From: a virus | IMG/VR virus record: IMGVR_UViG_3300030380_006769 | Span: 1-20,193 of that record | DNA length: 20,193 nt | Reading direction: 5' to 3' (one strand) | Shown here: positions 1-17,129 of the stretch, piece after piece | How the letters are laid out: every line of letters begins with the position of its first letter | Position numbering within the stretch: position 1 is the stretch's first letter | The notes under the pieces: generated by a model | Seen by the model: only the letters and a program-made list of their open reading frames with translations | The model's database searches: none | What the model was told of the DNA's origin: nothing | Made by a program: the position numbers and the translations under genes

Positions 1-222
1 TTATCATTCAATAATCGTACTGCAGAAGATATAAATTTAATTGCTGCTTTTTTTGACAATAAAGCAGCAAAAAACTTTGACTTTACAGTAACAGATAATT
101 TTACTGGAGGAAATTTATCTAATACGACTATGAAAGTTGTATGTGATACGTATAGTATAAATTATGTTAGAGAAAATTTTCATTCTTTAACTTGTACACT
201 ACGAAGAGTTTATGAGCCATGA
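1..222 (+). CDS. Minor tail protein M-like (3' end only)
   Basis: The reading frame is open from the first base and ends in TGA at 220-222, giving the last 73 residues of a protein that starts upstream. The segment near the start reads FNNRTAEDINLIAAFFDNKA, then KNFDF, and it ends in LTCTLRRVYEP. This pattern (an aromatic-rich 'end of profile' helix, a short beta segment, then a final strand) is what the C-terminal half of the lambda gpM/minor tail family looks like, and M lies directly before L in lambda-type tails, as here. Its stop overlaps the next start as ATGA. The call rests on short sequence plus gene order, so it is probable rather than certain. Confidence 0.7.
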   Translation, partial: LSFNNRTAEDINLIAAFFDNKAAKNFDFTVTDNFTGGNLSNTTMKVVCDTYSINYVRENFHSLTCTLRRVYEP

Positions 223-1996: not shown

Positions 1997-2744
1997 AATT
2001 TATTTAGAAGGAGAGCTTGGCGCTAAATTTGGAAAAGAGTACACCATGAATGTAAACTCTTTTTCAGAGGTTTTACGCTGCTTGGAGTGTAATTTTTCTA
2101 ATTTTAGAGAGTATTTAAATTCTTGTGCAGAAAATAATATAGGATTTGTATGTGAAGTTGCGGGAAACCCGTTAAAAAGTGAAGCAGAACTTCTTTTACA
2201 ATACAGGGAAGGAGATATGTTAATTAGTCCGCTTCCAATGGGATCTAAGAGTGGCGGAGGTAAAATACTGGCAGCACTTGCTGTAACTGCTTTGATACTA
2301 ATTAACCCCGGCGGATTTTTTATGACGCAAACACAAGCAGCTGCGTTTAATGCAGCAGGAGTTCAAACACAAGCAGCTACATACGCTCTTACTACTCCGG
2401 GATTAGTTGCAGCAGGTCTAGCAGTAAACTTAGCTTTAGCGGGTGTTCAACAAATAATGGCTCCAGATCCAGGAGTAGACAGCGATCAAGATGAAAGTTA
2501 TTTATTTCAAGGAACAGGACAAACTCTTGTAGAAGGAGACCCTGTTCCTATTTTATATGGAAAGCTGAGAGTGCCGGGACGTCCTATAAGTACACAAGTA
2601 AGAAATGAAAGATTAAATTATTATGATGCTGGGACAGTCTATGCAGATTCTACAGCAGATTCAACTAATCCTGTTGTTGTAAATGGAGCAAGCGGTGGTA
2701 GTAACGATCCAACAGAAGAACGTGAAAATCACGCAATGCGATAA
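1986..2744 (+). CDS. Tail assembly protein I-like
   Basis: A 252-residue protein matching lambda gpI (223 residues), which is needed for tail-tip assembly together with K, L and J. Residues about 1-82 look like a ubiquitin-like beta-grasp domain. A glycine-rich hinge (GSKSGGGK, 86-93) follows, then two hydrophobic helices (about 94-110 and 138-158) separated by a QTQAA-rich stretch (the motif occurs at 115-119 and 127-131). The conserved C-terminal part has SYLFQGTGQT (171-180) and GDPVPILYGKLRV (184-196), close to the usual family motif. The start codon lies inside the K gene (11-nt overlap) with AGGA a short distance upstream. The gene ends 11 nt before J. The order K-I-J and the motifs agree. 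Confidence 0.88.
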   Translation: MERKIYLEGELGAKFGKEYTMNVNSFSEVLRCLECNFSNFREYLNSCAENNIGFVCEVAGNPLKSEAELLLQYREGDMLISPLPMGSKSGGGKILAALAVTALILINPGGFFMTQTQAAAFNAAGVQTQAATYALTTPGLVAAGLAVNLALAGVQQIMAPDPGVDSDQDESYLFQGTGQTLVEGDPVPILYGKLRVPGRPISTQVRNERLNYYDAGTVYADSTADSTNPVVVNGASGGSNDPTEERENHAMR

Positions 2745-2755
2745 GAGAGAAGATA

Positions 2756-5700
2756 ATGGTAGATATTAATAGAGGAGGTCGTACTTCACAGCTTACAAAT
2801 GCTGGTGCTACTGCACAAAATATAAATATAACTGATTTAATTTGTGAAGGCCCTATTAAAGGCTTGGTAGATGGTGTAGGTAGTTTATACCTAGACGATG
2901 TATCTGTAGAGGACTCAAAATTTTCTGAATTTATTCCTGAATCTTTTTTAAATGGAACTATATCTTTTTCTGGCAGTGCAGTCGGAACGGTTGCTTCAAA
3001 TATTGATATAAGTTCAGTTGAATTTGACTCTGCAAGCCCTAGAAGTATACGACTTTTATATAAGCAAACAACAGCAACATTAACGAGTCTTACTGAAACT
3101 AATGCAAAAAGAGATTTAGTATTAGAAGCAGTATCTGGAACTCCTTTTGATTCTTCATGGGAAACAGGCTCTCAACTATCTGGAAACGCAGAAGCTAGAG
3201 CTGTGTTGTCTCACTCTGATATGGAAAGCTCTCGAGCAGGGGTTTTTAGAGTCACAGATGGTAACACAGCTTCTTTTTCTACTGCAGGAGGAAGTTTTCC
3301 GTCTACTGGAACGTATACTATAACAATTTTTTATTACATTTCAATAACCGGAATTAACTCTTCAACTAATGAAATTACACTAGCGTCTGCTCCAAACTCA
3401 GGGACTTATGAGTTTGCTATTGGACAACAACAATTAATTGATGATGAAGGCGAGGGACAAGCAAATACTGCTAGTGTTGTTACCAGAATTAATAAACTTA
3501 ATATTGACTTCCGTAGAGGAGATTTAGAGCAAACTGTAGTTTCTTCTGTTGGAGGAGTTGGAGGCTCTGTAGCAGTTACCGGAAGTACTTCAAATATAAG
3601 TGGACCTTCAGAATTAAAAATAATCAGCTCTTCTTTATCGTCTTCTTTGGGTATAGGTATATTTGACGTAAATGGTCTTCCAAATACTGATGGCAGTGCA
3701 ACTTTTCCTGGAAATCCAGATACTTCTATTATGGCTAGTGCTGCTACAATTTTACCCAGCTCTGCTTTTGGATTAGATACTGCTGTTAAAATTGCTGAAG
3801 CTGACGAAATTGGATTTACTATTAAGTATCCTGCACTTCAAGTAATAAATTTAAATAAAGGAAAAAAAGAAACTGCATATGCATTTTATGTAATGCAAAT
3901 TCGTTTTCAACAAAATGGAGCGTTTACAGCTTTTAAAGCACTATTCCCTAATCGAGGAGACTACGTAAAACATTTTGCAAATACTAGTGCCCCAATATCT
4001 TTTGACCATCAAGTAAATTTAGATGGATATAGAAACATAGTAGGCCCTTTTGAAGACTTTCAAGTTAGAATTGTAAGAGTTACTCGTCATATAGGACTAC
4101 CTGTGCGTCAAAGTGGTACTAATGAAAATGATCCAGATAAATCAAAATGGCAACTTTCTGCTACAGCATCTGTAGAAAGTTTACGTGCAGTAATTAAGGA
4201 CAACTTAATTTATCCTTATAGTTCAATTGCCTCTGTTAGTTTTTCGTCTAAACAGTTTGATGGTATCCCAAAAAGAAGTTACTTACTTCAAGGTAAATTA
4301 GTAAATGTTCCAAATACTTATACTCCTCGAGAGTACTCAAATACAGGAATTGCAAAGTATTCAGGGTTCTGGAATGGAGATTTTCATAGTACTCCACTTT
4401 ATACAGATAATCCTGCTTGGATATTTTATGATATTGTTACTAATAATAGGTATGGTGGTGGGAGATGGTTAAAAGACACTGAAATAGATAAGTATGCTTT
4501 ATATCGTGTAGCGAGATATTGTGATGAACTAGTAGATGATGGAAGTGAATATAATAATCAAACTCCTTTAATAGTTGGAGAGTTCTATAAAATTAAAGTT
4601 ACAGGAGCAATGAATTGGAGTACAGTGGGAGCTTCTAGTAACGCTGTAGGAACAATTTTTCAAGCTACATCAACTACACTCACAACGGCAACTGCAAAGG
4701 CATGTAGAGTTGAGCCACGTTTTCGTGCAAATGTATTTCTTACTAAGGCAACGGATGCTTACAAAGTGTTTAAAGACTTTGCAACTATATTTTTAGGAAT
4801 ACTTTATTGGCAAGATAGTAAGGTTGTTGCTGTGCAAGATGCACCCCAAGATCCTGTTTATAATTTTACAAAAGGAAATATCATAGATGGAATTTTTTCA
4901 TACGAGTCTTCAGGCTCTCGCACAAGAGTAAATCAAGTTGTAGTTACTTGGAATGATCCTACAATTAATTATGAGCCCGTACCTTTAGTAGTAGAGGATA
5001 GAGAAAGCATTGCTCGCACAGGCAGAATTATTAGTGAAAGTGCTGTAGCTTTTGGAGCCACTTCAGAAAGTCAAGCAATTCGATATGGTAGGTGGAAACT
5101 ATGGACTGCTCAAAATCAAACAGAAGTTGTATCATTTAAAACTTCTTTAGCTGCTCATTTTGTTAAGCCTGGCGATGTTATAAATATTCAGGATGCAGAT
5201 AGATTTGGAGTTGCTTATAGTGGCCGTACAAGTTCTGCAACATCTACTACTCTTACTTTTGATAGAAGCGTTCCTTTTAACTCTGGCTCAACTTACGAGT
5301 TGAGTACTCTTGTAACTGCTCCGGCAGCATTAAATGCTTCAGACGGCAGTATAACTATAAATTCAGTAACATACGAAAGAGGAGAAAAGATAGATCAAGC
5401 ATTTGTTTTTAATGGCTCTGCTTATGTTTTAACAAATTTAGATACTGAAAAAAGAGCTTCAAATGCATTTACAGATAGTTCAGGCTCAGAGCTTATTCCA
5501 ACAGTATGGAAGCCTTATTCATATATAGAAAGTCACGAAATTACAAATCCTGGAAGTACTGTAACAACAGTTACTCTAGCAAACTCTGCTACTTTTGACA
5601 CTACTCCTTCTAAACACAATATTTGGGCATTAAAAGAGACTTCTGGAGGCTTGAATGTTTCTGGATCAGAAAAAATGTATAAGGTTTTAAGTATTACAGA

Positions 5701-8700
5701 AGAAAGTTCTAATATTTTTGCAATAAGTGCAGTTGAATATTTTGATGAAAAATTTACAGCAATTGAACAAGAGTATTCATTAGGAGTTACTCCTGCTTCT
5801 GTTTATATTGAAAATGAACCTGTCGTTATTCCGAGACCTATAAATCCAAGAGTAGTTTTAGCAACTGATGCCTCTAGTCCGGGAGAAGAATTGAGAATTG
5901 AGTGGGATCAACCTTCATCAAGTATAGAGTCTATAGTGCGATACGAAGTATTACACAACATAGATGGAGTAAGAAATCCGTTTATAACAAAAGATACTCA
6001 TGCAGTTTTTAATAATGTTCCAAATGGCAGTGCTACATTTAAAATACGAGCAATTTCTAGACAAGGAAATATATCTTCGTATACAGCCATTGAATACGGT
6101 GTATATGATCCATATAGTGAAAATATACCTCGGATGGCTGGAGGTATTCCAAAAGGTGCCATTTCTACAGCACAGGGCAAAATTAATTCAAGTAATCAGT
6201 TTGTATTCCAAGCAACAAACACTCAAGTAGCTTCAGTAGGAAATCCTTTTATTACTTATACTATTACGGGGGCAAAAAATGTTGCAAACATTTCAGCTGG
6301 AGAAAAGTATTATCTTTATCTAGATACTGCAACACCGTCGCTAAAACTATTAGAGTACGAGGCATCTGCTTTCTCTAATTTACAATTCTATAGAGATGTC
6401 GGATCAGGAAATGCAGCACTGTCTACTGCATGGACATCTATAGGCACTGTTTCTGTTTCTGCAAATTCAAATGAAGTTACTGGAAGTGGATTTAATAATA
6501 ATGTTCAGTTGAGAGACGTATTAAATTTATCAAACTCTACGAGCCCTTCTGGAGGAGATGGTGCAACTGTAATTTCTATTATTTCAGATACAAAACTACT
6601 GATTGATCGTACTTTTAGTACTGCAAAATCCAGTATTACTGCATATCGCTCTGCATTTAGACCCGACTATGCAAATGATGCTATTTTTGCAGAGATTACA
6701 AAAACAGGAAGTACTATTTCAACTGATAATTTTATTACTTTAAGAACTTTGTCAGACGATGAAGATGATACAACCGAAACTTTAGATGACGGTACAATTA
6801 GAGTAAGGGATGGGGGAATAAGTGTAGATAAAATTGCTGCAAACTCAATTACTGCTGATAAAATTCAGGCAAATGCAATTAGCGCTCGTGAGATTGATGC
6901 AGATTCAATCAATGCAAACCACATTATAGCAGGCCAAATTACTGCAAGTGCCATTGCAGCGGGAGCAATAACTTCAGACAAAGTTACAGCGAACTCTATA
7001 GTTGCAACTCTTTTGAATGCAACTAAAGTACAAGCTACTGATATACAAACTACAACTCTTTCATCAATTAGTGCAAATATTGGTGATATTACTGCCGGAA
7101 CTCTCAAAGGAGGAAATATACCAGATGCAAATTCTGCGCCTGCAGGAAGTGAGAGTGGAGCATTCTTAAATCTTACTGGCGGTAAAATGGTTTTTGGTAA
7201 TGCAAGTAAGTACGTATTATTTGATGGTACAAATCTTGAATTGAATGGTGTAGTTATTGATGCAAGCTCAACAATCAGTGCTCCTGCTCCTGCACAAATT
7301 ATAATAAAAGAAGACGGTACGACAGAAGTTAGTGATGCTTCATCTTTAAATTTTACAAATGGACTTAATGTTTCAGTTTCTGGTACAGAGGCTACAATAA
7401 ATATAGATACAGGTGCTGTAACAAATGGAGCTACTACTATTCCTACAGGAGATCAAGTACATGACTTTGTAATTGCTCAAGGATATACTACTAATATTGG
7501 AGATATTACAGGTGTTACAGCAGGAGATGGACTAAGTGGAGGAGGCAGCTCTGGAGGAGTTTCTCTAGCAGTAGACTCTACGGTAGTTCGTACGAGTGGT
7601 GCTCAAACAATAAATGGTAATAAAACTTTTGGTAATAATGTAACAGTTGCTGGTAATCTCACTGTAAATGGAACTACTACTACAATTAATACACAAAATG
7701 TAACTATAGAAGATAATATTATAATTGTAAACAGTGCTCAATCGGGAACTCCAGCTTCTTCTGTCACTGCAGGACTTGAGGTAGAGAGAGGATCCTCTTC
7801 AAATAAAAGATTTGTATATGCAGAAAGTGGAGTTGGCAATTCAGGAAATGAAACTTCAGGATGGACTTTTGGAAGCGAAAGAGTCGAAGCAGGTACTTTT
7901 TTTGGCACTTTTGTTGGAGATGTAACAGGTACTCCTAGTTCTCTTGTAGGATTGACTACAGACAATCTTGCTGAAGGCACAAATAATCTTTATTTTACTA
8001 ATGCAAGAGCTATAGCTGCTATAAGTACAGGAGTAGGTATTGCAAAATCAGGTCAAAGTATATTTGTAGATCTTTCTGAATTAACTGATATGACATCGAG
8101 TGTTAATAGAACACAGGATGAATTAATTCTTTTAGATAATGGTGCAGATAGAAGAAAACTTATTTCAGAAATTGGACTAAGTGCATTTAATAATGATTTA
8201 GGCTTTACATCTAACGCCGGAGATATTACAGGTGTTACAGCAGGAACAGGATTAACAGGTGGTGGTTCCTCCGGTAGTGTTACACTTAATGTTAATACTG
8301 GCGCAGTGTCAAACGGTGCAAATACTATTCCAACAGGTGATCAAGTACATGACTTTGTTACAGGACAAGGCTTTGTAACAAGTTCAGGAGTTACAAGTAT
8401 AGTAGTTAATACAGCGGCCGGGTTAGATGGTGGAGGAACAACAATTACAAGCACCGGAACAATATCATTAAGTTTAGATCTTTCAGAGCTTACTGATATG
8501 ACTGGTGCAGTAGATACTTCAGTAGATGAATTAATTCTTTTAGATAATGGATCAGAACGCAGAAAAAGATTTGATGAAATCTTTGGGTCAAATGCGTATA
8601 GCTCGACTACGATTCCTACTAATAATAATCAACTTACTAACGGTAGAGGCTTTACTACAAATACTGGTACAGTAACATCTGTATCAGGAGGTACAGGGTT

Positions 8701-9325
8701 ATCTGGAACTGTTACAACTTCGGGGTCTCTCAACTTAACTAATACTGGAGTTACTGCGGCGACCTATGGTAGCAGTACGAACATTCCTCAAATAGCCGTA
8801 GATGCACAAGGACGTATTACAAGTGCAAGTAATGTAGGAGTATCAATACCTTCTGGAGCAAATGATGCAACTATTACACTCTCTGCTGGAAATGGTCTTA
8901 CGGGTGGAGAAGATTTTACTACTGATCAAGCTTCCGATGAAACAATTACATTTAATGTTGGAGCAGGAGATGGTATTTCTGTAACAGCAAATGCAGTTGC
9001 AGTAGACTCTACAGTACTTCGAGCAGGTACAGGTAGTCTGATAAATGAAATTGTTAATGCAAATGTAATTACTGCAGACATGATTCAAGCAAACTCAATT
9101 GTTGCTACAATTATTACTGCGGAAGAAATTACTGCTTCGCATATTGCTACAAATACTATAACAGCAAATGAAATTTCAGCAGGAGCAATCACAGCAGAGC
9201 AATTACAAATCTCTAATAACTCAGCAGGAAGTGCTGGTATATTTATGGATTTCAATTTCGGAAACTCAAGAATTGACATACGAGACTCCAGTGCTCTGCG
9301 AGTGCGTATTGGATACCTTGCGTAA
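2756..9325 (+). CDS. Giant J-like central tail-tip/receptor-binding protein with added fibre modules
   Basis: A 2189-residue protein with the conserved lambda gpJ core at its N-terminus. Motifs seen include ICEGPIKGLVDG (29-40), IPKRSYLLQGKLVNVP (about 504), DNPAWIFYDIVTNNRYGGG (about 552), EPRFRANVFL after residue 652, VYNFTKGNIIDG (about 700) and VVTWNDP. A fibronectin-III-like domain follows at about 1026-1119. A stalk of short AN/AG-x-I-[TS] repeats spans 1357-1451. A long fibre-like region of GDITGVTAG, GGGSSG and DELILLDNG modules follows, then a second short stalk (2104-2150) and a terminal segment ending VRIGYLA. Lambda gpJ has 1132 residues, so about half of this protein is additional. 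J forms the tail tip and its distal part chooses the host receptor. A purine-rich site (AGAGAGAAG) precedes the ATG. Core assignment is firm; the roles of the distal modules are inferred. Confidence 0.93.
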   Translation: MVDINRGGRTSQLTNAGATAQNINITDLICEGPIKGLVDGVGSLYLDDVSVEDSKFSEFIPESFLNGTISFSGSAVGTVASNIDISSVEFDSASPRSIRLLYKQTTATLTSLTETNAKRDLVLEAVSGTPFDSSWETGSQLSGNAEARAVLSHSDMESSRAGVFRVTDGNTASFSTAGGSFPSTGTYTITIFYYISITGINSSTNEITLASAPNSGTYEFAIGQQQLIDDEGEGQANTASVVTRINKLNIDFRRGDLEQTVVSSVGGVGGSVAVTGSTSNISGPSELKIISSSLSSSLGIGIFDVNGLPNTDGSATFPGNPDTSIMASAATILPSSAFGLDTAVKIAEADEIGFTIKYPALQVINLNKGKKETAYAFYVMQIRFQQNGAFTAFKALFPNRGDYVKHFANTSAPISFDHQVNLDGYRNIVGPFEDFQVRIVRVTRHIGLPVRQSGTNENDPDKSKWQLSATASVESLRAVIKDNLIYPYSSIASVSFSSKQFDGIPKRSYLLQGKLVNVPNTYTPREYSNTGIAKYSGFWNGDFHSTPLYTDNPAWIFYDIVTNNRYGGGRWLKDTEIDKYALYRVARYCDELVDDGSEYNNQTPLIVGEFYKIKVTGAMNWSTVGASSNAVGTIFQATSTTLTTATAKACRVEPRFRANVFLTKATDAYKVFKDFATIFLGILYWQDSKVVAVQDAPQDPVYNFTKGNIIDGIFSYESSGSRTRVNQVVVTWNDPTINYEPVPLVVEDRESIARTGRIISESAVAFGATSESQAIRYGRWKLWTAQNQTEVVSFKTSLAAHFVKPGDVINIQDADRFGVAYSGRTSSATSTTLTFDRSVPFNSGSTYELSTLVTAPAALNASDGSITINSVTYERGEKIDQAFVFNGSAYVLTNLDTEKRASNAFTDSSGSELIPTVWKPYSYIESHEITNPGSTVTTVTLANSATFDTTPSKHNIWALKETSGGLNVSGSEKMYKVLSITEESSNIFAISAVEYFDEKFTAIEQEYSLGVTPASVYIENEPVVIPRPINPRVVLATDASSPGEELRIEWDQPSSSIESIVRYEVLHNIDGVRNPFITKDTHAVFNNVPNGSATFKIRAISRQGNISSYTAIEYGVYDPYSENIPRMAGGIPKGAISTAQGKINSSNQFVFQATNTQVASVGNPFITYTITGAKNVANISAGEKYYLYLDTATPSLKLLEYEASAFSNLQFYRDVGSGNAALSTAWTSIGTVSVSANSNEVTGSGFNNNVQLRDVLNLSNSTSPSGGDGATVISIISDTKLLIDRTFSTAKSSITAYRSAFRPDYANDAIFAEITKTGSTISTDNFITLRTLSDDEDDTTETLDDGTIRVRDGGISVDKIAANSITADKIQANAISAREIDADSINANHIIAGQITASAIAAGAITSDKVTANSIVATLLNATKVQATDIQTTTLSSISANIGDITAGTLKGGNIPDANSAPAGSESGAFLNLTGGKMVFGNASKYVLFDGTNLELNGVVIDASSTISAPAPAQIIIKEDGTTEVSDASSLNFTNGLNVSVSGTEATINIDTGAVTNGATTIPTGDQVHDFVIAQGYTTNIGDITGVTAGDGLSGGGSSGGVSLAVDSTVVRTSGAQTINGNKTFGNNVTVAGNLTVNGTTTTINTQNVTIEDNIIIVNSAQSGTPASSVTAGLEVERGSSSNKRFVYAESGVGNSGNETSGWTFGSERVEAGTFFGTFVGDVTGTPSSLVGLTTDNLAEGTNNLYFTNARAIAAISTGVGIAKSGQSIFVDLSELTDMTSSVNRTQDELILLDNGADRRKLISEIGLSAFNNDLGFTSNAGDITGVTAGTGLTGGGSSGSVTLNVNTGAVSNGANTIPTGDQVHDFVTGQGFVTSSGVTSIVVNTAAGLDGGGTTITSTGTISLSLDLSELTDMTGAVDTSVDELILLDNGSERRKRFDEIFGSNAYSSTTIPTNNNQLTNGRGFTTNTGTVTSVSGGTGLSGTVTTSGSLNLTNTGVTAATYGSSTNIPQIAVDAQGRITSASNVGVSIPSGANDATITLSAGNGLTGGEDFTTDQASDETITFNVGAGDGISVTANAVAVDSTVLRAGTGSLINEIVNANVITADMIQANSIVATIITAEEITASHIATNTITANEISAGAITAEQLQISNNSAGSAGIFMDFNFGNSRIDIRDSSALRVRIGYLA
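4562..4711 (+). other. Small beta module inserted into the conserved J core
   Basis: Residues 603-652 of the J-like protein (TPLIVGEFYKIKVTGAMNW, then STVGASSNAVGTIFQAT and a Thr/Ala-rich tail) interrupt the core between VDDGSEYNNQ and EPRFRANVFL, segments that are nearly adjacent in ordinary gpJ proteins. The pattern 'G..Y.I...G...W/FT..GA..N.VGT.F.AT' is a small module I recognise from many marine phage structural proteins. It probably forms a surface-exposed insertion. Confidence 0.6.
6824..7108 (+). repeat. First stalk repeat array of the J-like protein
   Basis: Residues 1357-1451 consist of short degenerate repeats of about 10-12 residues with the pattern [AD]-x-I-x-A-[NG]-x-I-[TS] (for example DKIAANSITADKIQANAIS). 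Such arrays at the ends of J-type proteins are expected to form a trimeric stalk. The repeats are degenerate at DNA level. Confidence 0.75.
7499..8550 (+). repeat. Duplicated fibre modules inside the J-like gene
   Basis: Two kinds of repeated segment are visible. GGAGATATTACAGGTGTTAC and the seven following bases occur identically at 7499-7525 and 8219-8245 (27 nt, encoding GDITGVTAG). A second 26-nt segment encoding DELILLDNG is identical at 8117-8142 and 8525-8550, 408 nt (136 codons) apart. The phrase GDQVHDFV also appears twice, near 7450 and 8338. Identity at synonymous positions points to fairly recent intragenic duplication or conversion. Confidence 0.85.
9065..9205 (+). repeat. Second stalk repeat array of the J-like protein
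   Basis: Residues 2104-2150 (VITADMIQANSIVATIITAE and onward to ISAGAITAEQL) repeat the same stalk pattern found at residues 1357-1451, after a gap of about 650 residues filled by fibre-like modules. The protein then ends with a segment typical of J C-termini (SRIDIRDSSALRVRIGYLA). Confidence 0.75.
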
Positions 9326-9344
9326 TACCTCCAAAAAATAATCC

Positions 9345-9373
9345 TTGACATAGTATGTCCTCTAGGCTATAAT
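9345..9373 (+). promoter_or_regulatory. Consensus sigma70 promoter ahead of the fibre block
   Basis: TTGACA at 9345-9350 and TATAAT at 9368-9373 are both perfect matches to the sigma70 -35 and -10 boxes and are separated by the ideal 17 bp. The site lies in the only sizeable gap (67 bp) between J and the next gene. Transcription would start near 9380, just ahead of the AGGAGA ribosome-binding site at 9382-9387 and the ATG at 9393. The leader would be very short. Strength and use in vivo are inferred. Confidence 0.85.
9347..9359. promoter_or_regulatory. Perfect inverted repeat over the -35 box, possible operator
   Basis: GACATA-G-TATGTC is a perfect 6-1-6 palindrome covering four bases of the -35 box and the start of the spacer. 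A repressor or activator bound here would sit on the promoter. No regulator is encoded in the window, and a 13-bp palindrome can occur by chance, so this is a candidate only. Confidence 0.35.
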
Positions 9374-9392
9374 TCCACAATAGGAGAAGTAA

Positions 9393-9734
9393 ATGGCAGC
9401 AGCAACTTATAATCTAGTTATTGACCAAGGATCAGACTTTACTCTTGACTTAGTCGTAAAAGAATCAGGTTCGGTTAAGAATCTTACTGGCTATTCTGCT
9501 AGAGCGCAGTTGCGTACCAAAAAAGATGCGTCAGGAAACGCCGCTGCTAGCTTTACTTGTACCGTTACAGACGCTACCGCAGGAGCTATTCGTATGGAGC
9601 TTCCAAATGCTACATCTACTGGAATTTCTGCAGGACGTTATTACTACGATCTTGAAATTCACACAGGTTCTGATGCTATTGTTAAACGCCTTATACAGGG
9701 AGAGGTTACAATAAACCAAGAAGTAACAAGATAA
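9393..9734 (+). CDS. Small Ig-like/BppU-N-like baseplate or fibre-adaptor protein
   Basis: A 113-residue beta-rich protein. The opening ATYNLVIDQGSDFTLDLVV, then LTGYSARAQLRTKKDAS in the middle and GRYYYDLEI with RLIQGEVTINQEV at the end, fits a family of small phage proteins with an immunoglobulin-like fold (similar to the N-terminal domain of BppU baseplate proteins) that often lie beside fibre genes. It has no signal peptide or membrane segment. It is the first gene downstream of the consensus promoter and has a good ribosome-binding site (AGGAGA, six bases before ATG). Its stop overlaps the next ATG by one base (TAATG). Likely role: a structural adaptor between tail tip and fibres. The fold assignment is moderate and the exact role is not known. 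Confidence 0.6.
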   Translation: MAAATYNLVIDQGSDFTLDLVVKESGSVKNLTGYSARAQLRTKKDASGNAAASFTCTVTDATAGAIRMELPNATSTGISAGRYYYDLEIHTGSDAIVKRLIQGEVTINQEVTR

Positions 9735-10150
9735 TGTCAGTCGTACTTACTACAGTAGATGTTTCAGAAGATGTAACCGAAGTTTCGATAACAGAGACCG
9801 GAAAAGTTGAAGTTGCAATAAATGAAGATACAACCACAATAGAGATAAATAATTTTGCTATACCAAGCACTACTTCTGATGCTTCTGGAGTTTCTTTCAA
9901 TCCTCATGGAACTGTAACTGCAACAAATTTACAAGGAGCTGTAGAGCAGCTTGCAGATCAACAATTTCGAGGAACTGCACCTCCGGCAGATGGAACTGCA
10001 AACTTAGAAGAGGGAGACCTTTTTTATGACACAGATGATAATCAAATAAAAGTATACCGCGAAACTAGTTCAGGAGTTTTTGAGTTTGTACCTATAATAG
10101 TAGGTGACGCTTCAGGTGATTCAGACACGCTAGACGCAGGAGCCTTTTAA
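9734..10150 (+). CDS. Small fibre-associated structural protein
   Basis: A 138-residue acidic protein, translationally coupled to the previous gene (TAATG). Residues about 1-42 are a Thr/Val-rich beta region. HGTVTATNLQGAVEQLADQ (about 58-76) resembles the 'A.N.QGAI.EL' segment common in phage fibres. EGDLFYDTDDNQIKVYRET (about 92-110) resembles the 'GDLWYDT..N.LKVY' motif of tail-fibre proteins. The C-terminus, DTLDAGAF, is close to that of the next fibre protein (NILDGGTF), which may mark a shared attachment or assembly peptide. No enzyme motif is present. It is a structural protein by motif and context; I cannot name a family with certainty. Confidence 0.6.
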   Translation: MSVVLTTVDVSEDVTEVSITETGKVEVAINEDTTTIEINNFAIPSTTSDASGVSFNPHGTVTATNLQGAVEQLADQQFRGTAPPADGTANLEEGDLFYDTDDNQIKVYRETSSGVFEFVPIIVGDASGDSDTLDAGAF

Positions 10151-10169
10151 GGCTAATTTGGAGTTTTAA

Positions 10170-12101
10170 ATGGCTCAAACAATCAAAATCAAACGCAGTA
10201 CAACCACTGCAGCTCCTAGCTCCCTAACAGCAGGTGAATTAGCGTACTCGGATAATAGTGATAAGCTATTTATTGGTGCTCCTGCAGACAATGCAGTTGT
10301 AGCAATTGGTGGTAAAGTTTATGTTGATATGCTTGATCATACAGCAGGTACTTTAACAGCTTCTAGTGCAATTATTGTAGATGCAGATAGTAAGATTGAT
10401 AAATTACTTACTGGTAATATACAAATTAATGATACTGCAAATCAAATTGACACTTCCAGCGGTAATCTTATACTAGCTCCTGCAGCAAACTTAAAAATTA
10501 ATGCAGGTACTGTTGACCTTAGTGCTCAAGCTACTCAACTCTCTCTTGTAGATAACTCTGCCACTGCTCTTACAATCGCAGAAGGCTCTAATACCTATAT
10601 GTCGTTTATTACGACAAACTCTGGTGAGAAAATTACTACAGGAAAGACTCTTGTAGTTGACGGTGACGGAACTACTGGAAACGGTGGAGTAACGATTGAA
10701 AACGGCACTATTGATTTAAAGAATGGTGGCGGAAACGACTCTCGTATACGATTCTATTGCAGTTCTTCAAACGCGCACTTCCAAACATTGCAAGCTGCTC
10801 CACACAGTGCTTCAGCATCTAATACTCTTCTTCTTCCTGCAGCAGGTACTGAATTAATATCTAATACTGCTACGCAGACAATGACAAATAAGTCATTGAC
10901 TTCTCCAACTCTTACAGGCACAACTACAGCGGCAGCTGCAAACTTCTCTGGAACTATAACAGGCCCAGGAGGTTCAAGCAGCGGTGTAAGTATTACACAA
11001 GGTGCTATTGCTATAAAGAATGGCGGAACTCAATCAAGAATTGATTTCTATTGTGAAGTTTCAAATGCGCACTATGCCAGACTGCAAGCGCCAGCACACT
11101 CTGCATTCAGTGGAAATGTTACAATTACACTTCCTGCAGCAACTACTACTCTTGTAGGTACAGATACTACACAAACACTAACAAATAAAACTCTTACTTC
11201 TCCAGACATTAATACTCCTGATATTGACGGCGGTGCTATTGATGGTGCAACAATTGGTGGAAACACTCCTGCAGCAGGCACCTTCACAACTTTAGCAGGT
11301 AACTCTTTAGCAGTTGATAATGTATCTGTAGATACAAATACTATCTCAACTACAAACTCAAACGGTGATTTAGTACTTTCTCCAAATGGCACAGGAACTG
11401 TTACTGTTCCTTCTGGGTACAAAAATCGTGCAGGATTTGGAGCAAACTCTCTTGTATCAAAAGAGTACGTTGACGCAGTAAAAGTTGGACTTGATTTTAA
11501 AGATTCTGTACGAGTCGCTTCTACAGCAAATGTAACAGTTTCTGGTCCTGGTACAGCGATTGATGGTATAACACTATCAAGTGGTGATCGAGTTCTGTTA
11601 AAAGACCAGTCAACTGCCTCTGAAAACGGTATTTATGTATTTAACGGATCTGCTTCTGCAATGACTCGAGCAACAGATGCGGATTCAAGCACTGAAGTTA
11701 CATCAGGATTATTTACTTTTGTAGAAGAGGGTACTGTAAACGCTGATAATGGATTTGTACTTACAACAGATGGAAGTATTACTGTAGGAAGTACTTCGCT
11801 TTCTTTTGTTCAATTCTCTGGAGCAGGTCAAATTACAGCAGGTGATGCTTTATCAAAAACAGGTAATCAACTTGATGTAAATGATGACAACATCACATTA
11901 GAAGTTAATAGTGATGCTTTACGAATAAAAGGAATTTCCGCAACTGCCGTAGGTGATTTACTTATCGGTGCAGCCTCAAATGCAGGTTACACACGACTTG
12001 TCAAGCCTTCTGGTAATGCTACTGCACACGACTATGTTCTTTCTATGAATACGAGCGGAGCAGCTCAATGGTCTAATATTCTAGACGGCGGTACATTCTA
12101 A
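10170..12101 (+). CDS. Tail fibre protein with Mtd-N-like N-terminus (fibre 1)
   Basis: A 643-residue modular fibre. Residues about 1-45 (MAQTIKIKRSTTTAAPSS, then AGELAYS and KLFIG) resemble the N-terminal domain of the phage major tropism determinant and many marine fibres, which attaches the protein to the tail. A beta-rich shaft follows. Residues 176-250 and 275-350 are two copies of one module with a D[ILV]KNGG...RI.FYC...NAH core. Residues about 418-552 form another common fibre module (SKEYVDAVKVGLDFKDSVRV, then VLLKDQSTASENGIYVF). The end is AQWSNILDGGTF. A GGAG site precedes the ATG by ten bases. It lies between the small adaptors and its larger paralogue at 12147, with which it shares the N-terminus. 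Likely role: host recognition. The receptor is unknown. Confidence 0.82.
   Translation: MAQTIKIKRSTTTAAPSSLTAGELAYSDNSDKLFIGAPADNAVVAIGGKVYVDMLDHTAGTLTASSAIIVDADSKIDKLLTGNIQINDTANQIDTSSGNLILAPAANLKINAGTVDLSAQATQLSLVDNSATALTIAEGSNTYMSFITTNSGEKITTGKTLVVDGDGTTGNGGVTIENGTIDLKNGGGNDSRIRFYCSSSNAHFQTLQAAPHSASASNTLLLPAAGTELISNTATQTMTNKSLTSPTLTGTTTAAAANFSGTITGPGGSSSGVSITQGAIAIKNGGTQSRIDFYCEVSNAHYARLQAPAHSAFSGNVTITLPAATTTLVGTDTTQTLTNKTLTSPDINTPDIDGGAIDGATIGGNTPAAGTFTTLAGNSLAVDNVSVDTNTISTTNSNGDLVLSPNGTGTVTVPSGYKNRAGFGANSLVSKEYVDAVKVGLDFKDSVRVASTANVTVSGPGTAIDGITLSSGDRVLLKDQSTASENGIYVFNGSASAMTRATDADSSTEVTSGLFTFVEEGTVNADNGFVLTTDGSITVGSTSLSFVQFSGAGQITAGDALSKTGNQLDVNDDNITLEVNSDALRIKGISATAVGDLLIGAASNAGYTRLVKPSGNATAHDYVLSMNTSGAAQWSNILDGGTF
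10695..11219 (+). repeat. Two copies of an NAH/FYC fibre module in fibre 1
   Basis: Copy 1 is 10695-10919 (residues 176-250) and copy 2 is 10992-11219 (residues 275-350). Aligned anchors are RIRFYCSSSNAHFQTLQ with RIDFYCEVSNAHYARLQ, and TMTNKSLTSPTLTG with TLTNKTLTSPDINTP. The copies have diverged in sequence, so the duplication is old or the copies were acquired separately. Confidence 0.8.
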
Positions 12102-12146
12102 ATTTAATACCTCTCGCGTAAATACGCATAGTACTGGAGGAGCCAC
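12102..12146 (+). promoter_or_regulatory. Structured leader with strong ribosome-binding site
   Basis: This 45-bp gap holds a strong Shine-Dalgarno site, GGAGGAG at 12136-12142, six bases (from GGAGG) before the ATG. Upstream is a perfect inverted repeat, GCGTA-AA-TACGC (12116-12127). CCTC at 12110-12113 can pair with GAGG at 12137-12140, enclosing that hairpin and hiding the ribosome-binding site. The pairing is short, so the regulatory reading is tentative. No promoter boxes are evident. Confidence 0.4.
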
Positions 12147-15100
12147 ATGGCGCAAACAATTAAACTAAAACGGTCTTCCGTTTCTGGTAATACTCCTTCA
12201 ACCTCAGATTTAGAGCTAGGTGAAGTTGCCATCAATACTTACGATGGTAAAATGTTCATTAAGAAAAATGATGGCTCTGACTCTATTGTTGAAATTGGAG
12301 GTTCCTCTGGAACCGTAACTGATGCATTTAAAACTATTGCTGTATCCGGACAAACTAGTGTTGTAGCCGATTCAGCAACTGATACTCTTACATTTGTAGC
12401 CGGTACTAATATGAGTATCACTACAAACGCGTCAGGTGACTCAATTACGTTTGCGTCTACAGGAAGTAGTGGCTCTGCTACTTTTCTTGGTCTTTCAGAT
12501 ACTCCTGCTAACTTTACTGGAGCCGCCGGAAAGTTTTTAAAAGTAAACTCGGGCGGTAACTCGATTGAGTTTGATACTCTTAATTTTGATGATTTAGGAA
12601 CTACTCCAACTACTCTTGCAGGGTATGGAATTACCGACTCTCTACAACTAGGAACTAGTTCAACTACTGCACTTGCAGGAAATACTTCAATACCTTCAGC
12701 ACTTACTGATTTAAGTATTAGTGATGGTTCAAATGGTCAAGTATTACAAACAGATGGTAGCGGTAATTTTAGTTTTGTTAACCAAACGGGTGGCAACTCT
12801 TTCGGAACTATTGCTGTATCTGGACAATCAGATGTAGTTGCAGATCAAGGAAGTGATACTCTAACTCTTGTTGCAGGAAATAATATTACTCTTTCAACAA
12901 ATGCATCTGGTGATAGTGTAACCATTACTTCTACTGCAAGCGGTAGCGGCCCTACCGCTGCTGATGCAATCTTAGAAGAATACCAATTTACTGCTACTTC
13001 AGGGCAGACAACATTTACTGGATCTGATGATAATAGTCAAACTCTCTCGTATACTGCAAATGCAATTCAAGTATTTCTTAATGGTATTTTTCTTGACCCT
13101 TCTGTAGACTACACTGCAACAAACGGTACTTCAATCGTACTTTCTGAGACCGTAGATGCAAACGATTATCTACAAATTATTGCATATAAGAAAAAGATAA
13201 GCGATGGTCAAACAACAGTAAATACTTTTACAGGAAACGGTTCAACTACTGCATTTACTCTTTCTCTAAATCCAGGCGATGAAAATAATACCCGTGTATT
13301 TGTAGATGGTGTGTACCAGTCAAAATCTAACTATTCCGTAAGTGGTACAACTCTTACATTCACTACTGCTCCTTCAAACGGAACTGCTATTGAAGTAGAA
13401 GTTGGAAATCGTATTGTAACTCTCGATACTCTCAGTAATCTCGACCTTCCTGATAATGTAAAACTGCGACTTGGTACCAGTCAGGATCTTGAAATATTTC
13501 ATGATGGAAACAATAGTAGAATTACTGACACTGGAACAGGTGATCTGATTATAAAGGGTGGTAATGATATTCTTTTCCAAGATGCTGTTGGAAATACTTT
13601 AGCTAACATGAACCAATCAAATAGTGTTGAGCTTTATTTTGGTGGTAACAAAAAATTTGAAACAACCTCCGCGGGCGTCGATGTAACTGGAATAATCAAA
13701 GCATCCGGTAACGGTAAGCTACAAATAGCTGATGATGTAGAAGGCTCTACGTTCGAATTTAATGTAGGCGGTACCGGTGCGTTAGAAATCTATGATGGCA
13801 CTACAGAACGCTTCCGTATTGACTCGAGCGGCAATGTTGGTATCGGCACTACCACCCCGTCATCTTTTAGTGGTGATGGAAATAATTTAGTTGTTGGTAC
13901 AACTAGCGGCAATAATGGTATTAGTGTTATCAGTGCGACTGATGGAACTAGCAACATTTATTTTGGTGATACCACAACAACTGGAGGCGGGTCAAGACGC
14001 GGACAAATAGTTTACGACCACAACACTGACTCTATGCGTTTTGCTACAGCAGTTACAGAACGCATGCGTATCGACTCCAGTGGCAACGTTGGTATCAGAA
14101 ATACTAATCCAAATAAACCTCTTACTATTACTGCTGATAGTGGTGCTAATGGCATAGCTCTTAGAGCAAGGTCTGCCGATGACTATTCCTTTATTCAATT
14201 TTTTAACAACGCAGGTACAGCATTAAGAGGGCAAATTTATAGTAAAGCTGCAGGAGATATAGGCTTTACAACAGGCACAGACAGCTCTGCAGGTAATGAT
14301 TTATATATTAAAAACGGTACTGGAGTTGGTATCGGCACTACTTCTCCAGTTGGTACGCTAGACGTTAGCTCAACAAACGCTGTAGGATCTGTATTTAGAA
14401 AAGACTTTAACGGTCCTGTTGCAGATACATTCAGTAAAGTTGCTGTAACACTTTGGGGTCAAGACCACGATGATGCAGACGTTGGAACTGGAACAGATCA
14501 ATTTGGACCGATGCTTGGATTCGGAGCAAGAATTGATGACGGATCTCCAAATTCAGGTGATGTTCGTGCGGGTATTTCATATTCATACAATGGCGATCTA
14601 ACATTTCATGCAAAAGCAGGAGCAAGTGTTGCAGACGGTTCGTATGAAAGAATTCGTATTGATGGAGCTACGGGCAACGTAGGTATCGGCACTGCTTCTC
14701 CAGATGCTCCTCTAGCTGTTCATAACTCAAGCCTAACCTCCACATCTTTTGATGGTTCTGGAGGTATTCGAGTTCATCGTCCAAATGCTTTCGGACAGTA
14801 CGGCTGGCTTGAATACGGGTATAATAGCGACACAACATTTATTGGAAGTAAATATAGTGGAGGAACTGCTACACACTATGGTCAAATTTGGTTTGCTCAA
14901 GACTCAAATGGAGGAAGTAGACGGTATCCTTTAGTTATTACTGGAGCAAGCAACGTAGGTATCGGTACTACTAATCCAAGTACAAGATTACATGTCGATA
15001 GCGGTAGTGACTTTCCTGCAATAACTATTGCAAGATCAACGACCAACGCAGGTTTATCATTTACGTTAGGAATGTCTGACTTTGGAGGCGGAGGTACTGA

Positions 15101-17129
15101 TCTTCTTTTTGATGGTGTAGGCAATAACACCGGATTTGGTTTTAGGTCAACAAACGCAAGTGGTACTCAAGTAAATTCACTAGTTATAGCTCCTTCTGGC
15201 AACGTTGGTATCGGCACTACTTCTCCAGCAAATAAGCTTCACGTAAAAGCAGGCGCGAGTGGTGCGACTACTTTTGATTCTCGAAATAATATTATTCTTG
15301 AAGACGATGGAGAAAACTATCTTGGATTCTATACTCCTAATAATAGTTTTTCTGGGCTTCGTTTTGTAAACGCCGATAGTTCAATTCGTGCACATATTGA
15401 CTACTATCATGGTACTCAGGGCGATAAATTTGTAATGTACTCTCAAGAGGGCTGGGAGTTTACTTATCCTTCATATGGAGTACAGCAAGTACTCAAGAAA
15501 AATGGTAATGTTGGTATTCGCGCCACAAATCCTCCGCATGATCTTACAATTTATAACGCGTCAGGCCCCACTCTTTATCTTGTAGGAGGCGGCTACAATG
15601 ATGACGTAAGAATTGCATTTGGAGGAGGAGACACTACAAATACTTCAAGCGATGGAAATACCGGTGCACAAATAATTTCAACTCAAAGTGCACTAAATGG
15701 GCAAGCTCGCGGTGACTTACGATTTTTAACTAATCAAGGTGATTCTCTTCAGACTCGCTTAGTGATTGAAGAGGCAGGTAACGTTGGTATCGGAACTACC
15801 TCTCCTGGGTACCCTTTAGAAATCTCTGGACCGGGAACAGTTTCTCTTGCTTACCAAAGAACAGGTACTGGAGTAACTGCTAAAAAGTGGGGCTTCCATT
15901 CTGATAATTCTAACACGTATTGGCAAAATATTACTGATAGTATACTTGCTATTACTGTGGCTAATGCTGGCAACGTAGGTATCGGCACTACTTCTCCACA
16001 AGTCAATTTAGATATTGCAGGAACTTTAGCAAGCCCTCCAACTATTCGTCTTACAAATACTACTACAGGATTTACTGCCGGCGATTCAACAGGAGAAATA
16101 GAGTTTTATCATAGTGATCCTACTGATTTTACTCCTGGTGTAATGGCAAAAATTCGAGCAGTTGCAGGTGCTTCGGGAGGTGAAGGCTCTCTTCAAATTC
16201 TTACCAATATGCCTTCAGAAGGTGCCGACGCAGCTACTATTGCAGCGCATTTTAATGGAAACGGAAATGTCGGTATCGGCACTACTTCTCCTGGCTCTAC
16301 TCTTGATGTACACGGAAATACAAATCTTGGCTCAGATTATATTGGTAATCAGTATACAACTACACTAAGCGGATTTTCGGTTACATCTAATGGATCAGAT
16401 TATTATGGAAGTTATGGTACATTACTGTTAAATTCCAACCAAAATTATACTTCTAATTCTCGTCCTTATATGATTACAAATGCGCTAGGAGCTAGTAAGT
16501 TTGCAATTATTTCGGGTACAAATGCAACTACAGATCCTACTATTGGAACTTCGGGTAATATAACTAGCGGATCAGCAAGATTAGTAATTGATAATGCAGG
16601 CAACGTAGGTATCGGAGATACACTTCGTACTGGTGTCTCTGCCACTACTACGCTAACTACAAAAGGTTCAATAGTTTCAGGATACTCACAGGGAGCCTCT
16701 ACTAATGTTGCTCGAAATACTCGAGACTGGTTTGTTTACGCGGGACCTAGCTCATCAAACTCTGGTGTGTATGTCCACATGAAAACAAATCTTTGGGGAG
16801 GGGGCTCTGCTTACGGAAATAGCGAGTTTACAATGAGTAGTTTTACTTATCATAACTATTATGCTTATGGTGGAACTTGGGCTCGTGGACAAATTTCATG
16901 GCACAATTGGAGTAATTCTTTCTACAATGTAGTAAGACAAAATGAAGGAACTCTAGAACTAGTACAACCAAGTTATATGTCTAGTGATGGGTATGTGGTA
17001 TTAGTTGCAAAAATAGACGCAGCGTATGCACAGTTTAGTATTGATTGGTTTCAGTGGGGAGGATATAGTTTTAGAGACAGAAAAGTTACAGCAGTAACAC
17101 AACATTCAGCAGCAACAGGAGCATACTAA
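12147..17129 (+). CDS. Large repetitive tail fibre protein with NVGIGT array (fibre 2)
   Basis: A 1660-residue fibre. Residues 1-52 (MAQTIKLKRSSVSGNTPS, then ELGEVAINTYDGKMFIKK) form the same Mtd-N-like attachment domain as fibre 1. Two copies of an 'IAVSGQ...VVAD...DTLT.VAG' module lie at about 60-110 and 218-268. Two beta modules of the type '[FV].LNG..LD...DY' follow at about 278-425. Residues about 434-515 (DLEIFHDG, then VELYFGGNKKFETTSAGVDV) are a very common marine-phage shaft module. Eleven NVGIGTTSP-type repeats fill about 553-1492. The last 168 residues form a different, Tyr/Trp-rich tip (for example SFTYHNYYAYGGTWARGQ) ending ATGAY. NVGIGT arrays often end in a peptidase S74 chaperone domain; none is visible here. 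Likely role: the longest side or tip fibre, contacting the host with its aromatic tip. Confidence 0.85.
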   Translation: MAQTIKLKRSSVSGNTPSTSDLELGEVAINTYDGKMFIKKNDGSDSIVEIGGSSGTVTDAFKTIAVSGQTSVVADSATDTLTFVAGTNMSITTNASGDSITFASTGSSGSATFLGLSDTPANFTGAAGKFLKVNSGGNSIEFDTLNFDDLGTTPTTLAGYGITDSLQLGTSSTTALAGNTSIPSALTDLSISDGSNGQVLQTDGSGNFSFVNQTGGNSFGTIAVSGQSDVVADQGSDTLTLVAGNNITLSTNASGDSVTITSTASGSGPTAADAILEEYQFTATSGQTTFTGSDDNSQTLSYTANAIQVFLNGIFLDPSVDYTATNGTSIVLSETVDANDYLQIIAYKKKISDGQTTVNTFTGNGSTTAFTLSLNPGDENNTRVFVDGVYQSKSNYSVSGTTLTFTTAPSNGTAIEVEVGNRIVTLDTLSNLDLPDNVKLRLGTSQDLEIFHDGNNSRITDTGTGDLIIKGGNDILFQDAVGNTLANMNQSNSVELYFGGNKKFETTSAGVDVTGIIKASGNGKLQIADDVEGSTFEFNVGGTGALEIYDGTTERFRIDSSGNVGIGTTTPSSFSGDGNNLVVGTTSGNNGISVISATDGTSNIYFGDTTTTGGGSRRGQIVYDHNTDSMRFATAVTERMRIDSSGNVGIRNTNPNKPLTITADSGANGIALRARSADDYSFIQFFNNAGTALRGQIYSKAAGDIGFTTGTDSSAGNDLYIKNGTGVGIGTTSPVGTLDVSSTNAVGSVFRKDFNGPVADTFSKVAVTLWGQDHDDADVGTGTDQFGPMLGFGARIDDGSPNSGDVRAGISYSYNGDLTFHAKAGASVADGSYERIRIDGATGNVGIGTASPDAPLAVHNSSLTSTSFDGSGGIRVHRPNAFGQYGWLEYGYNSDTTFIGSKYSGGTATHYGQIWFAQDSNGGSRRYPLVITGASNVGIGTTNPSTRLHVDSGSDFPAITIARSTTNAGLSFTLGMSDFGGGGTDLLFDGVGNNTGFGFRSTNASGTQVNSLVIAPSGNVGIGTTSPANKLHVKAGASGATTFDSRNNIILEDDGENYLGFYTPNNSFSGLRFVNADSSIRAHIDYYHGTQGDKFVMYSQEGWEFTYPSYGVQQVLKKNGNVGIRATNPPHDLTIYNASGPTLYLVGGGYNDDVRIAFGGGDTTNTSSDGNTGAQIISTQSALNGQARGDLRFLTNQGDSLQTRLVIEEAGNVGIGTTSPGYPLEISGPGTVSLAYQRTGTGVTAKKWGFHSDNSNTYWQNITDSILAITVANAGNVGIGTTSPQVNLDIAGTLASPPTIRLTNTTTGFTAGDSTGEIEFYHSDPTDFTPGVMAKIRAVAGASGGEGSLQILTNMPSEGADAATIAAHFNGNGNVGIGTTSPGSTLDVHGNTNLGSDYIGNQYTTTLSGFSVTSNGSDYYGSYGTLLLNSNQNYTSNSRPYMITNALGASKFAIISGTNATTDPTIGTSGNITSGSARLVIDNAGNVGIGDTLRTGVSATTTLTTKGSIVSGYSQGASTNVARNTRDWFVYAGPSSSNSGVYVHMKTNLWGGGSAYGNSEFTMSSFTYHNYYAYGGTWARGQISWHNWSNSFYNVVRQNEGTLELVQPSYMSSDGYVVLVAKIDAAYAQFSIDWFQWGGYSFRDRKVTAVTQHSAATGAY
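13804..16620 (+). repeat. Array of eleven NVGIGTTSP-type repeats in fibre 2
   Basis: Repeat cores begin near 13830, 14082, 14322, 14672, 14950, 15198, 15504, 15776, 15969, 16263 and 16599. The spacers of about 190-350 nt differ from one another. The 20-nt string GGTATCGGCACTACTTCTCC is identical at 14328-14347, 15207-15226, 15978-15997 and 16272-16291, and near-identical at most others. Copies 2 and 7 are degenerate (NVGIRNTNP, NVGIRATNP) and copy 11 loses its second half (NVGIGDTLR). Each core probably closes one beta-shaft segment. Confidence 0.9.
14760..14900 (+). repeat. RVHRPNA-type module, copy in fibre 2
   Basis: Residues 872-918 (GIRVHRPNAFGQYGWLEYG, then GSKYSGG and YGQIWFAQ) match a segment of the downstream fibre at 19969-20109. 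The 20 bases GAGTTCATCGTCCAAATGCT are identical at 14770-14789 and 19979-19998. In both proteins the module is followed by a spacer and an NVGIGT core. Confidence 0.85.

Follow-up and report, generated by a model that had tools for sequence, protein, structure and literature searches.

Between the gene for the central tail fibre protein J and the fibre genes of an uncultured virus (IMG/VR record IMGVR_UViG_3300030380_006769) lies what is very probably a strong late-class promoter of the host sigma70 type, which would head a separate transcription unit made up of an LtfC-like adaptor gene and the fibre genes behind it. The window, i.e. the whole stretch of DNA analysed, is a complete IMG/VR record yet a genome fragment of 20,193 bp, and the rest of the genome was seen through relatives only. 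The element stands out by its sequence, its conservation, its position, its membership of a genome-wide promoter set and a base difference between the strand classes of that set; from these we infer actual transcription, start site, timing, sigma70 use and benefit. The kind of element is ordinary, a strong late host promoter, and its place is conserved, although the first-pass annotation of this DNA had reason to find the place odd. The features are as follows.

2756..9325, plus strand: central tail fibre / host-specificity protein J (phrog_31, 6e-123, residues 1-1581)
9333..9341, plus strand: A-tract AAAAAATAA, UP-element-like, adjoining the -35 box on its upstream side
9345..9350, plus strand: -35 hexamer TTGACA, read directly
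9347..9359, no strand: inverted repeat GACATA-G-TATGTC, overlapping the -35 box and the spacer block
9355..9363, plus strand: conserved spacer block ATGTCCTCT, spacer index 10-18, about -25 to -17
9368..9373, plus strand: -10 hexamer TATAAT, read directly
9374..9381, plus strand: putative late-type discriminator, first base T, assigned by the strand-class statistics of the relatives
9382..9386, plus strand: Shine-Dalgarno sequence AGGAG, in a leader of presumably about 12-14 nt
9393..9734, plus strand: LtfC-like fibre adaptor gene, 113 aa, first in the unit, assigned by phrog and Pfam matches
9734..10150, plus strand: gene of 138 aa, second in the conserved block, overlapping the end of the LtfC gene by one base
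10170..12101, plus strand: fibre-like gene, variable, with matches to phrog_11518 tail fiber protein and others

Read directly, 9345-9373 is TTGACA-17-TATAAT, which matches the sigma70 consensus in 12/12 positions with a spacer of 17, just as had been claimed; the perfect inverted repeat GACATA-G-TATGTC reported at 9347-9359 is likewise present and overlaps the -35 box. The promoter sits in a gap of 67 nt (9326-9392) between the stop codon of J (ORF 2756-9325) and the ATG at 9393, and no terminator-like site was found in this gap. It is the sole 12/12 match among the 20,000 bases scanned. A second candidate at 10447-10474, matching in 11/12 positions, was set aside, lying as it does inside a fibre gene and without an A-tract. 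A chance match to the consensus might be suspected in an AT-rich genome (GC 38%), and 2 out of 100 shuffled windows do contain the exact pattern at a spacing of 16-18 (0.02 expected per shuffled window), but conservation across the adaptor-, J- and motif-selected loci described below refutes this explanation, to which we give next to no probability.

RNA polymerase would contact the A-tract through its alpha subunits and, in addition, TTGACA and TATAAT. Judged by the position of the -10 box, transcription is predicted to start near 9379-9381, and a start near 9380 would leave the mRNA only a very short leader, in which AGGAG lies. In this way adaptor and fibre synthesis could be raised or timed separately from that of J, adding to whatever read-through comes from the tail genes upstream.

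The neighbouring genes are tail genes: besides J, the upstream side encodes a tail assembly protein, a JAB/NlpC protein and minor tail protein L. The adaptor protein matches phrog_1084 (2.7e-28) and phrog_3304, "L-shaped tail fiber protein assembly" (5e-18), and reaches 3e-5 and 24.8 bits against Pfam LtfC, which is under the curated cut-off of 27. Downstream of it follow the 138-aa protein, probably structural to judge by its place, and then the fibre-like genes. DNA similarity to the compared relatives extends over the 138-aa gene to about 10134-10567 and is patchy in the fibre-like gene at 10170..12101. In the gene for minor tail protein L, a 60-bp tandem duplication was seen at 476-605 (2.2 copies, 98% match, 20 additional aa in frame), which is either a real duplication or an assembly artefact.

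Conservation of the promoter in related phages

A set of 75 loci was chosen by the adaptor protein. Two of these (L068, L076) were dropped because the gene start lay outside the match, and the other 73 together with the window were reduced, by removing near-duplicates, to 51 distinct loci, to which the filter TTGAC[AT]-17-TATAA[TA] was applied. A promoter of the form TTGACW-17-TATAA[TA] is found 19-21 nt before the start codon of the adaptor gene in 46 of the 51. While TTGAC and TATAA[TA] are imposed by the filter, the last base of the -35 box is T in 35 and A in 11 of the 46, and the -10 box is TATAAT in 45 and TATAAA in one. The tract AAAAATA beside the -35 box, which was not a selection criterion, is present in all 46 promoter-bearing relatives (46/46), and also fixed outside the filter are a C before the -35 box and a G at spacer index 21. 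Among the five promoter-negative loci, L032 has TTGCAC-17-TATAAT and L016, L021, L066 and L073 have nothing similar.

When loci were selected by J instead, the adaptor gene lay within 14 out of 79, and all 14 carry the promoter; the remaining contigs of this set mostly end inside J or run into other genes. A scan of viral contigs with the motif only gave at least 120 matching stretches. Re-reading 118 of them, among the matches listed, placed an adaptor gene 18-21 nt downstream in 102; the other 16 comprise ten cut by the contig end, one with a broken frame (L274) and five which look like chance (L172, L196, L232, L238, L257). Two stretches outside the 118 (L111, L152) have both gene and promoter in the J-selected analysis. 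The motif-selected and the adaptor-selected sets overlap in many contigs. The comparison with related phages proposed in the first-pass annotation thus finds the boxes conserved, in the adaptor-selected (46/51) as well as in the J-selected loci (14/14).

In L114 the distance from TATAAT to the adaptor gene is 92 nt where 19-21 nt is usual, and the promoter still matches in 12/12 positions. As it is kept despite the longer leader, the element is not simply part of the ribosome site. The 92-nt leader of this locus (15435-15526) contains a GC-rich inverted repeat, GCCCG...CGGGC.

Similarity around the J gap was compared in 11 loci from 9 contigs. In five of them (L002, L003, L005, L006, L013) similarity resumes, after a divergent J tip, at 9323/9324, which is the stop codon of J. 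It starts further upstream within J in L008 (9284), in L007 and L103 (one contig, 9158) and in L009 (9074), and in L004 and L080 (one contig) at 8445, inside J. Promoter and adaptor gene are stable here, flanked by a J tip and by fibres that both vary. The suggestion that the site marks the boundary of an acquired adhesion cassette is therefore right as to the mosaic edge, which coincides with the J stop in 5/11 loci, and wrong as to the promoter and the adaptor gene, which are conserved and not newly acquired. The same edge at 9323/9324 would fit a gap which is mainly a recombination joint, i.e. conserved DNA that allows adhesion parts to be swapped. However, in 6/11 loci similarity begins further upstream in J, conservation within the gap tracks the promoter elements and drops to the neutral level at spacer index 6-9 and 19-20, unlike a homology block of even conservation, and the promoter survives the longer leader of L114, so that a joint as the main role of this gap seems improbable to us.

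Strand classes of promoters and their discriminators

From the loci already found, 25 records of relatives were picked for size, all of which were hence known to hold the adaptor gene. The promoter set was analysed in 14 of these 25 records, with the stretches G012 58001-58495, G003 39901-40427 and G008 20001-20534 omitted. They contain 101 sites of the form TTGACW-16..18-TATAAT, a total that agrees with a separate count over these 14 records; 61 have the orientation of the adaptor gene and 40 the opposite one. In the same sequence pieces the motif is counted 107 times (overlaps between pieces included) and the reversed-motif control once. "Late" and "early" in what follows denote the strand relative to the adaptor gene and not a measured timing. 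AAAA[AT] stands before 58/61 late-strand and 33/40 other-strand promoters, against a background of 5.3% per 16-mer. In the 14 records the late-strand promoters cluster before the adaptor gene (14/14, the records being chosen for it), an HNH-like gene before the portal gene (11), the tail chaperone gene (8) and the gene for the terminase small subunit (4). The first-pass annotation had found a consensus promoter surprising here, such late genes being normally read from a single promoter, but several of them lie on the late strand of this T5-related group. In two records, pairs of TTGACA-18-TATAAT sites with GC-rich spacers lie near the record end (G011:75055-75172, G019:5585-5715), and one site of these pairs is identical in both.

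The two classes differ in the base after the -10 box. Among the promoters with an A-tract, T directly follows TATAAT in 44/58 on the late strand versus 0/33 on the other strand, and AT follows in 9/58 versus 29/33, which gives two -10 forms by strand class, the early-type TATAATAT and the late-type TATAATT. The split is not absolute: of the nine AT-followed late-strand promoters, four are in the tail-chaperone cluster. Weighting by gene family (14 late, 15 early; only promoters with an ORF within 120 nt) leaves T at 0.71 versus 0.00 (p about 0.0002, uncorrected for the positions scanned). The promoter at 9345 has the late form, with T next to TATAAT. Timing would probably follow the T5 scheme, in which promoters of both classes are of the sigma70 type and the discriminator differs, the late class here being marked by this T.

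The other use under consideration was a promoter active early, or in the lysogen, which would express an adhesion or surface function at times other than late infection. Moron promoters of the lambda lom/bor type lie in the late region behind J, and a promoter of its own behind J brings lambda lom to mind. Against such a moron-like role stand the late-type T after TATAAT, which none of the 33 other-strand promoters has, and the first gene, which unlike those of the lambda lom/bor morons belongs to a conserved family of tail-fibre assembly proteins. The relatives, again unlike these morons, yielded no tyrosine integrase (PF00589) in the 25 records, all of them fragments, in a search whose control was positive. 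Early use is thus contradicted and lysogenic use is without support, and we regard the whole reading as very unlikely. What stands of the original proposal is that the fibre block could in principle be transcribed separately, as it has its own conserved sigma70-type promoter; the part on early or lysogenic use is not supported.

With regard to the polymerase, a sigma70 region 4 domain was found in 0/25 relative records (the positive control was detected in 14/14 genomes), and a search of these records for a T7-type RNA polymerase gave no match, but neither did its positive control. Because the phages are uncultured, the use of sigma70 here is deduced. Counting against a late sigma70 promoter at 9345 are the 9/58 late-strand promoters that are AT-followed, the conserved spacer block, which known sigma70 contacts do not explain, and the late side of the isolated T5-like phage VspSw_1, which is nearly without such promoters.

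The spacer block and the inverted repeat

Part of the spacer is itself conserved. Over 46 sequences, pairwise identity at spacer index 10-18 is 0.829 versus 0.462 at index 6-9 and 19-20, in a comparison for which the limits of the block were chosen after the columns were seen and which leaves out index 21 (the invariant G) and 22. At fourfold-degenerate sites of the downstream gene the pairwise identity is 0.469, so that the block is clearly under selection. Its commonest form in the relatives is ATGTCCTTT. Known sigma70 contacts do not explain this block, which is possibly a new element, and we know of no counterpart of it in T5-like promoters.

The block also holds the right half, ATGTC, of the inverted repeat, whose left half is the -35 box. 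It had been suggested that the promoter with this palindrome might be under repressor control. Within the 20,193-bp window no further copy of GACATA-G-TATGTC with 0-2 mismatches exists, and when up to 3 mismatches are allowed 7 matches are counted versus 6.2 expected, the site accounting for two of the 7, one on each strand, so the proposed scan for further copies gave nothing beyond chance here. In the relatives the dyad ACAT/ATGT is intact in 34/99 distinct sequences, with T at -30 in 60/99, and on a FastTree tree of the 99 the full dyad has changed at least 6 times. The majority form TTGACT...ATGTCC breaks the symmetry while the right half is still conserved. GTC is kept in 92/99, a figure inflated by a set partly selected for TGTCC, and in 42/46 of the unselected set. 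A symmetric operator is therefore not a group-wide feature, and the claim of a repressor palindrome is not supported, with full symmetry in only 34/99 relatives and a majority form that breaks the dyad.

Symmetry is nevertheless enriched in some lineages. Arms of at least 5 bp over the -35 box occur in 11/26 distinct adaptor 29-mers versus 5/48 other promoters, and a shuffled-spacer control has a mean of 2.1 and a maximum of 6 versus the 11 observed; the filters of this count left out the forms of L061-L065, which by eye hold CTTGA/TCAAG. Taken together with the tree, these counts confine the enrichment to TTGACA lineages; a symmetric operator common to the whole group is not supported, and the idea is kept as an alternative below. 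Alternative dyads are present in L032 (TGCAC/GTGCA) and L318 (TTGACAT-AGA-ATGTCAA). Another late-strand promoter, in G005 (25888) and G006 (32805), has a TGACAT-N3-ATGTCA dyad, likewise over the -35 box.

Within the spacer, A at index 10 has a frequency of 0.63 in late-strand versus 0.24 in other-strand families (p about 0.017), and C at index 14 of 0.46 versus 0.07 (p about 0.006), both values being uncorrected for the positions scanned. Outside the adaptor family, GTC is at the matching place in 3/41 late promoters. Elsewhere in the relatives the spacer motif recurs with 1-2 mismatches, in many cases at other late-strand promoters, without making up one obvious regulon.

A phage DNA-binding protein might read the ATGTCC block, as a late activator or as a repressor, in which case the hexamers alone would not set the timing; in some lineages its target would be the full dyad GACAT-N3-ATGTC over the -35 box. 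Consistent with such a factor are the selection on the block (0.829 vs 0.469 at fourfold sites), the preference of late-strand families for A at index 10 and C at index 14, the excess of arms of at least 5 bp over other promoters and over shuffled spacers, and the further dyads in L032, L318 and the second late promoter of G005 and of G006. It is opposed by the rarity and the repeated changes of the full dyad, which the TTGACT majority breaks, by the fact that TTGACA itself forces part of the symmetry, and by GTC being found in so few late promoters outside the adaptor family. We consider this factor a tentative possibility, which would add to the late promoter and not exclude it. Somewhat more speculative still is a phage-encoded late signature, composed of the ATGTCC block, the A/C bias and the T after TATAAT, which would tell late from early sigma70 sites and would be read by a DNA-binding factor or by an RNA polymerase altered by a phage protein. 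If true, this signature would be a sequence handle on the early-to-late transcription switch of T5-type phages.

Phage group, host and known systems

A megablast search of window positions 2000-14000 against named phages gave no match, and among the matches listed in the literature none describes the group or promoters of this kind in it, which is not proof of absence. In the close relative G001, the terminase is 49% identical over 99% to that of Pectobacterium phage My1, and a protease-head fusion is about 36-38% identical to T5-like phages. In the 78-kb relative G012, the DNA polymerase is 45% identical over 99% to that of Vibrio phage VspSw_1 (Demerecviridae), and NAD ligase, ribonucleotide reductase, SHMT and Thy1 are encoded as well. 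The serine hydroxymethyltransferase gene lies in the early-strand region of the 78-kb relative (L277 12247-13392; Pfam SHMT, 2e-149). By these similarities the group appears mosaic, with T5-related replication, packaging and head genes and a lambda-like tail tip; the kinship to T5 comes from the relatives and not from the fragment itself.

With regard to the host, a genome scan gave 6 loci, of which four (L316-L319) were examined. One of these (L316), a contig in the uncultured gammaproteobacterial assembly AG-333-E20, a name which we take to mean a single-cell genome, carries the promoter before the adaptor gene and thereby suggests a host. A literature search on AG-333 did not find the name among the matches listed. 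Weaker host evidence comes from L317 (Betaproteobacteria) and L318 (Bacteroidetes), which are metagenome bins; both have the promoter, and L319 is without it. The 1.7-Mb assembly of L316 contains one other full match to the motif versus three for a control pattern, and the density of promoters is therefore a trait of the phages.

Outside the group, the adaptor gene can be preceded by another kind of late promoter. TATAAATA, which we take to be the T4-type late promoter motif, is found in exact form at most 80 nt upstream of the adaptor gene in 5 of the 11 loci without a sigma70 promoter (L066, L073, L074, L322, L324), these five being HTVC008M, Melnitz-1 and three environmental contigs, two of them alike. 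Six named phages were picked for this check from 40 listed, and exact TATAAATA is absent before the adaptor gene in the T4-like MED4-213 and S-SSM7. The T4-type late promoter uses a different polymerase partner, of the gp55 type. As in our group, a late-promoter sequence directly precedes the adaptor gene; unlike our group, other lineages are concerned, HTVC008M and Melnitz-1 being Kyanoviridae. The presence of TATAAATA before the adaptor in some other marine phages is a hint that phages in general may benefit from dosing or timing the adaptor separately. For the present uncultured and largely marine group, the data suggest that the late region is divided into several units headed by near-perfect host promoters, one of them ahead of the fibre adaptor.

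In phage T5, early as well as late genes have strong sigma70 promoters, the two classes differing mainly in the discriminator; its early promoters share the discriminator ATATT, and the mechanism of promoter switching is called unknown (PMC7472727). The base difference between strand classes and the selected spacer block would make this question approachable by sequence. The promoters described here resemble those of T5 and T5-like phages in being of the sigma70 type, in having an A/T-rich tract around -43 and TATAAT after a spacer of 17 nt, and in standing before genes of both classes (PMC7472727, PMC3326045). They also resemble T5 in that early and late classes, here defined by strand only, differ in the discriminator. 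The T5-like phage AKFV33 likewise has A/T-rich -43 regions, but the -35 consensus given for it is TTGCTW (PMC3326045), unlike the TTGACA of the window and the TTGACW, imposed by the filter, of the relatives. VspSw_1, of which 10001-110000 out of 113,760 was examined as a T5-like comparison, differs from the group in having one weak late-side site, with TTGCAT and a 16-nt spacer, where the late strand of the group has several near-perfect ones, and resembles it in that, away from the late side, AT comes after 9/16 sites and T after one.
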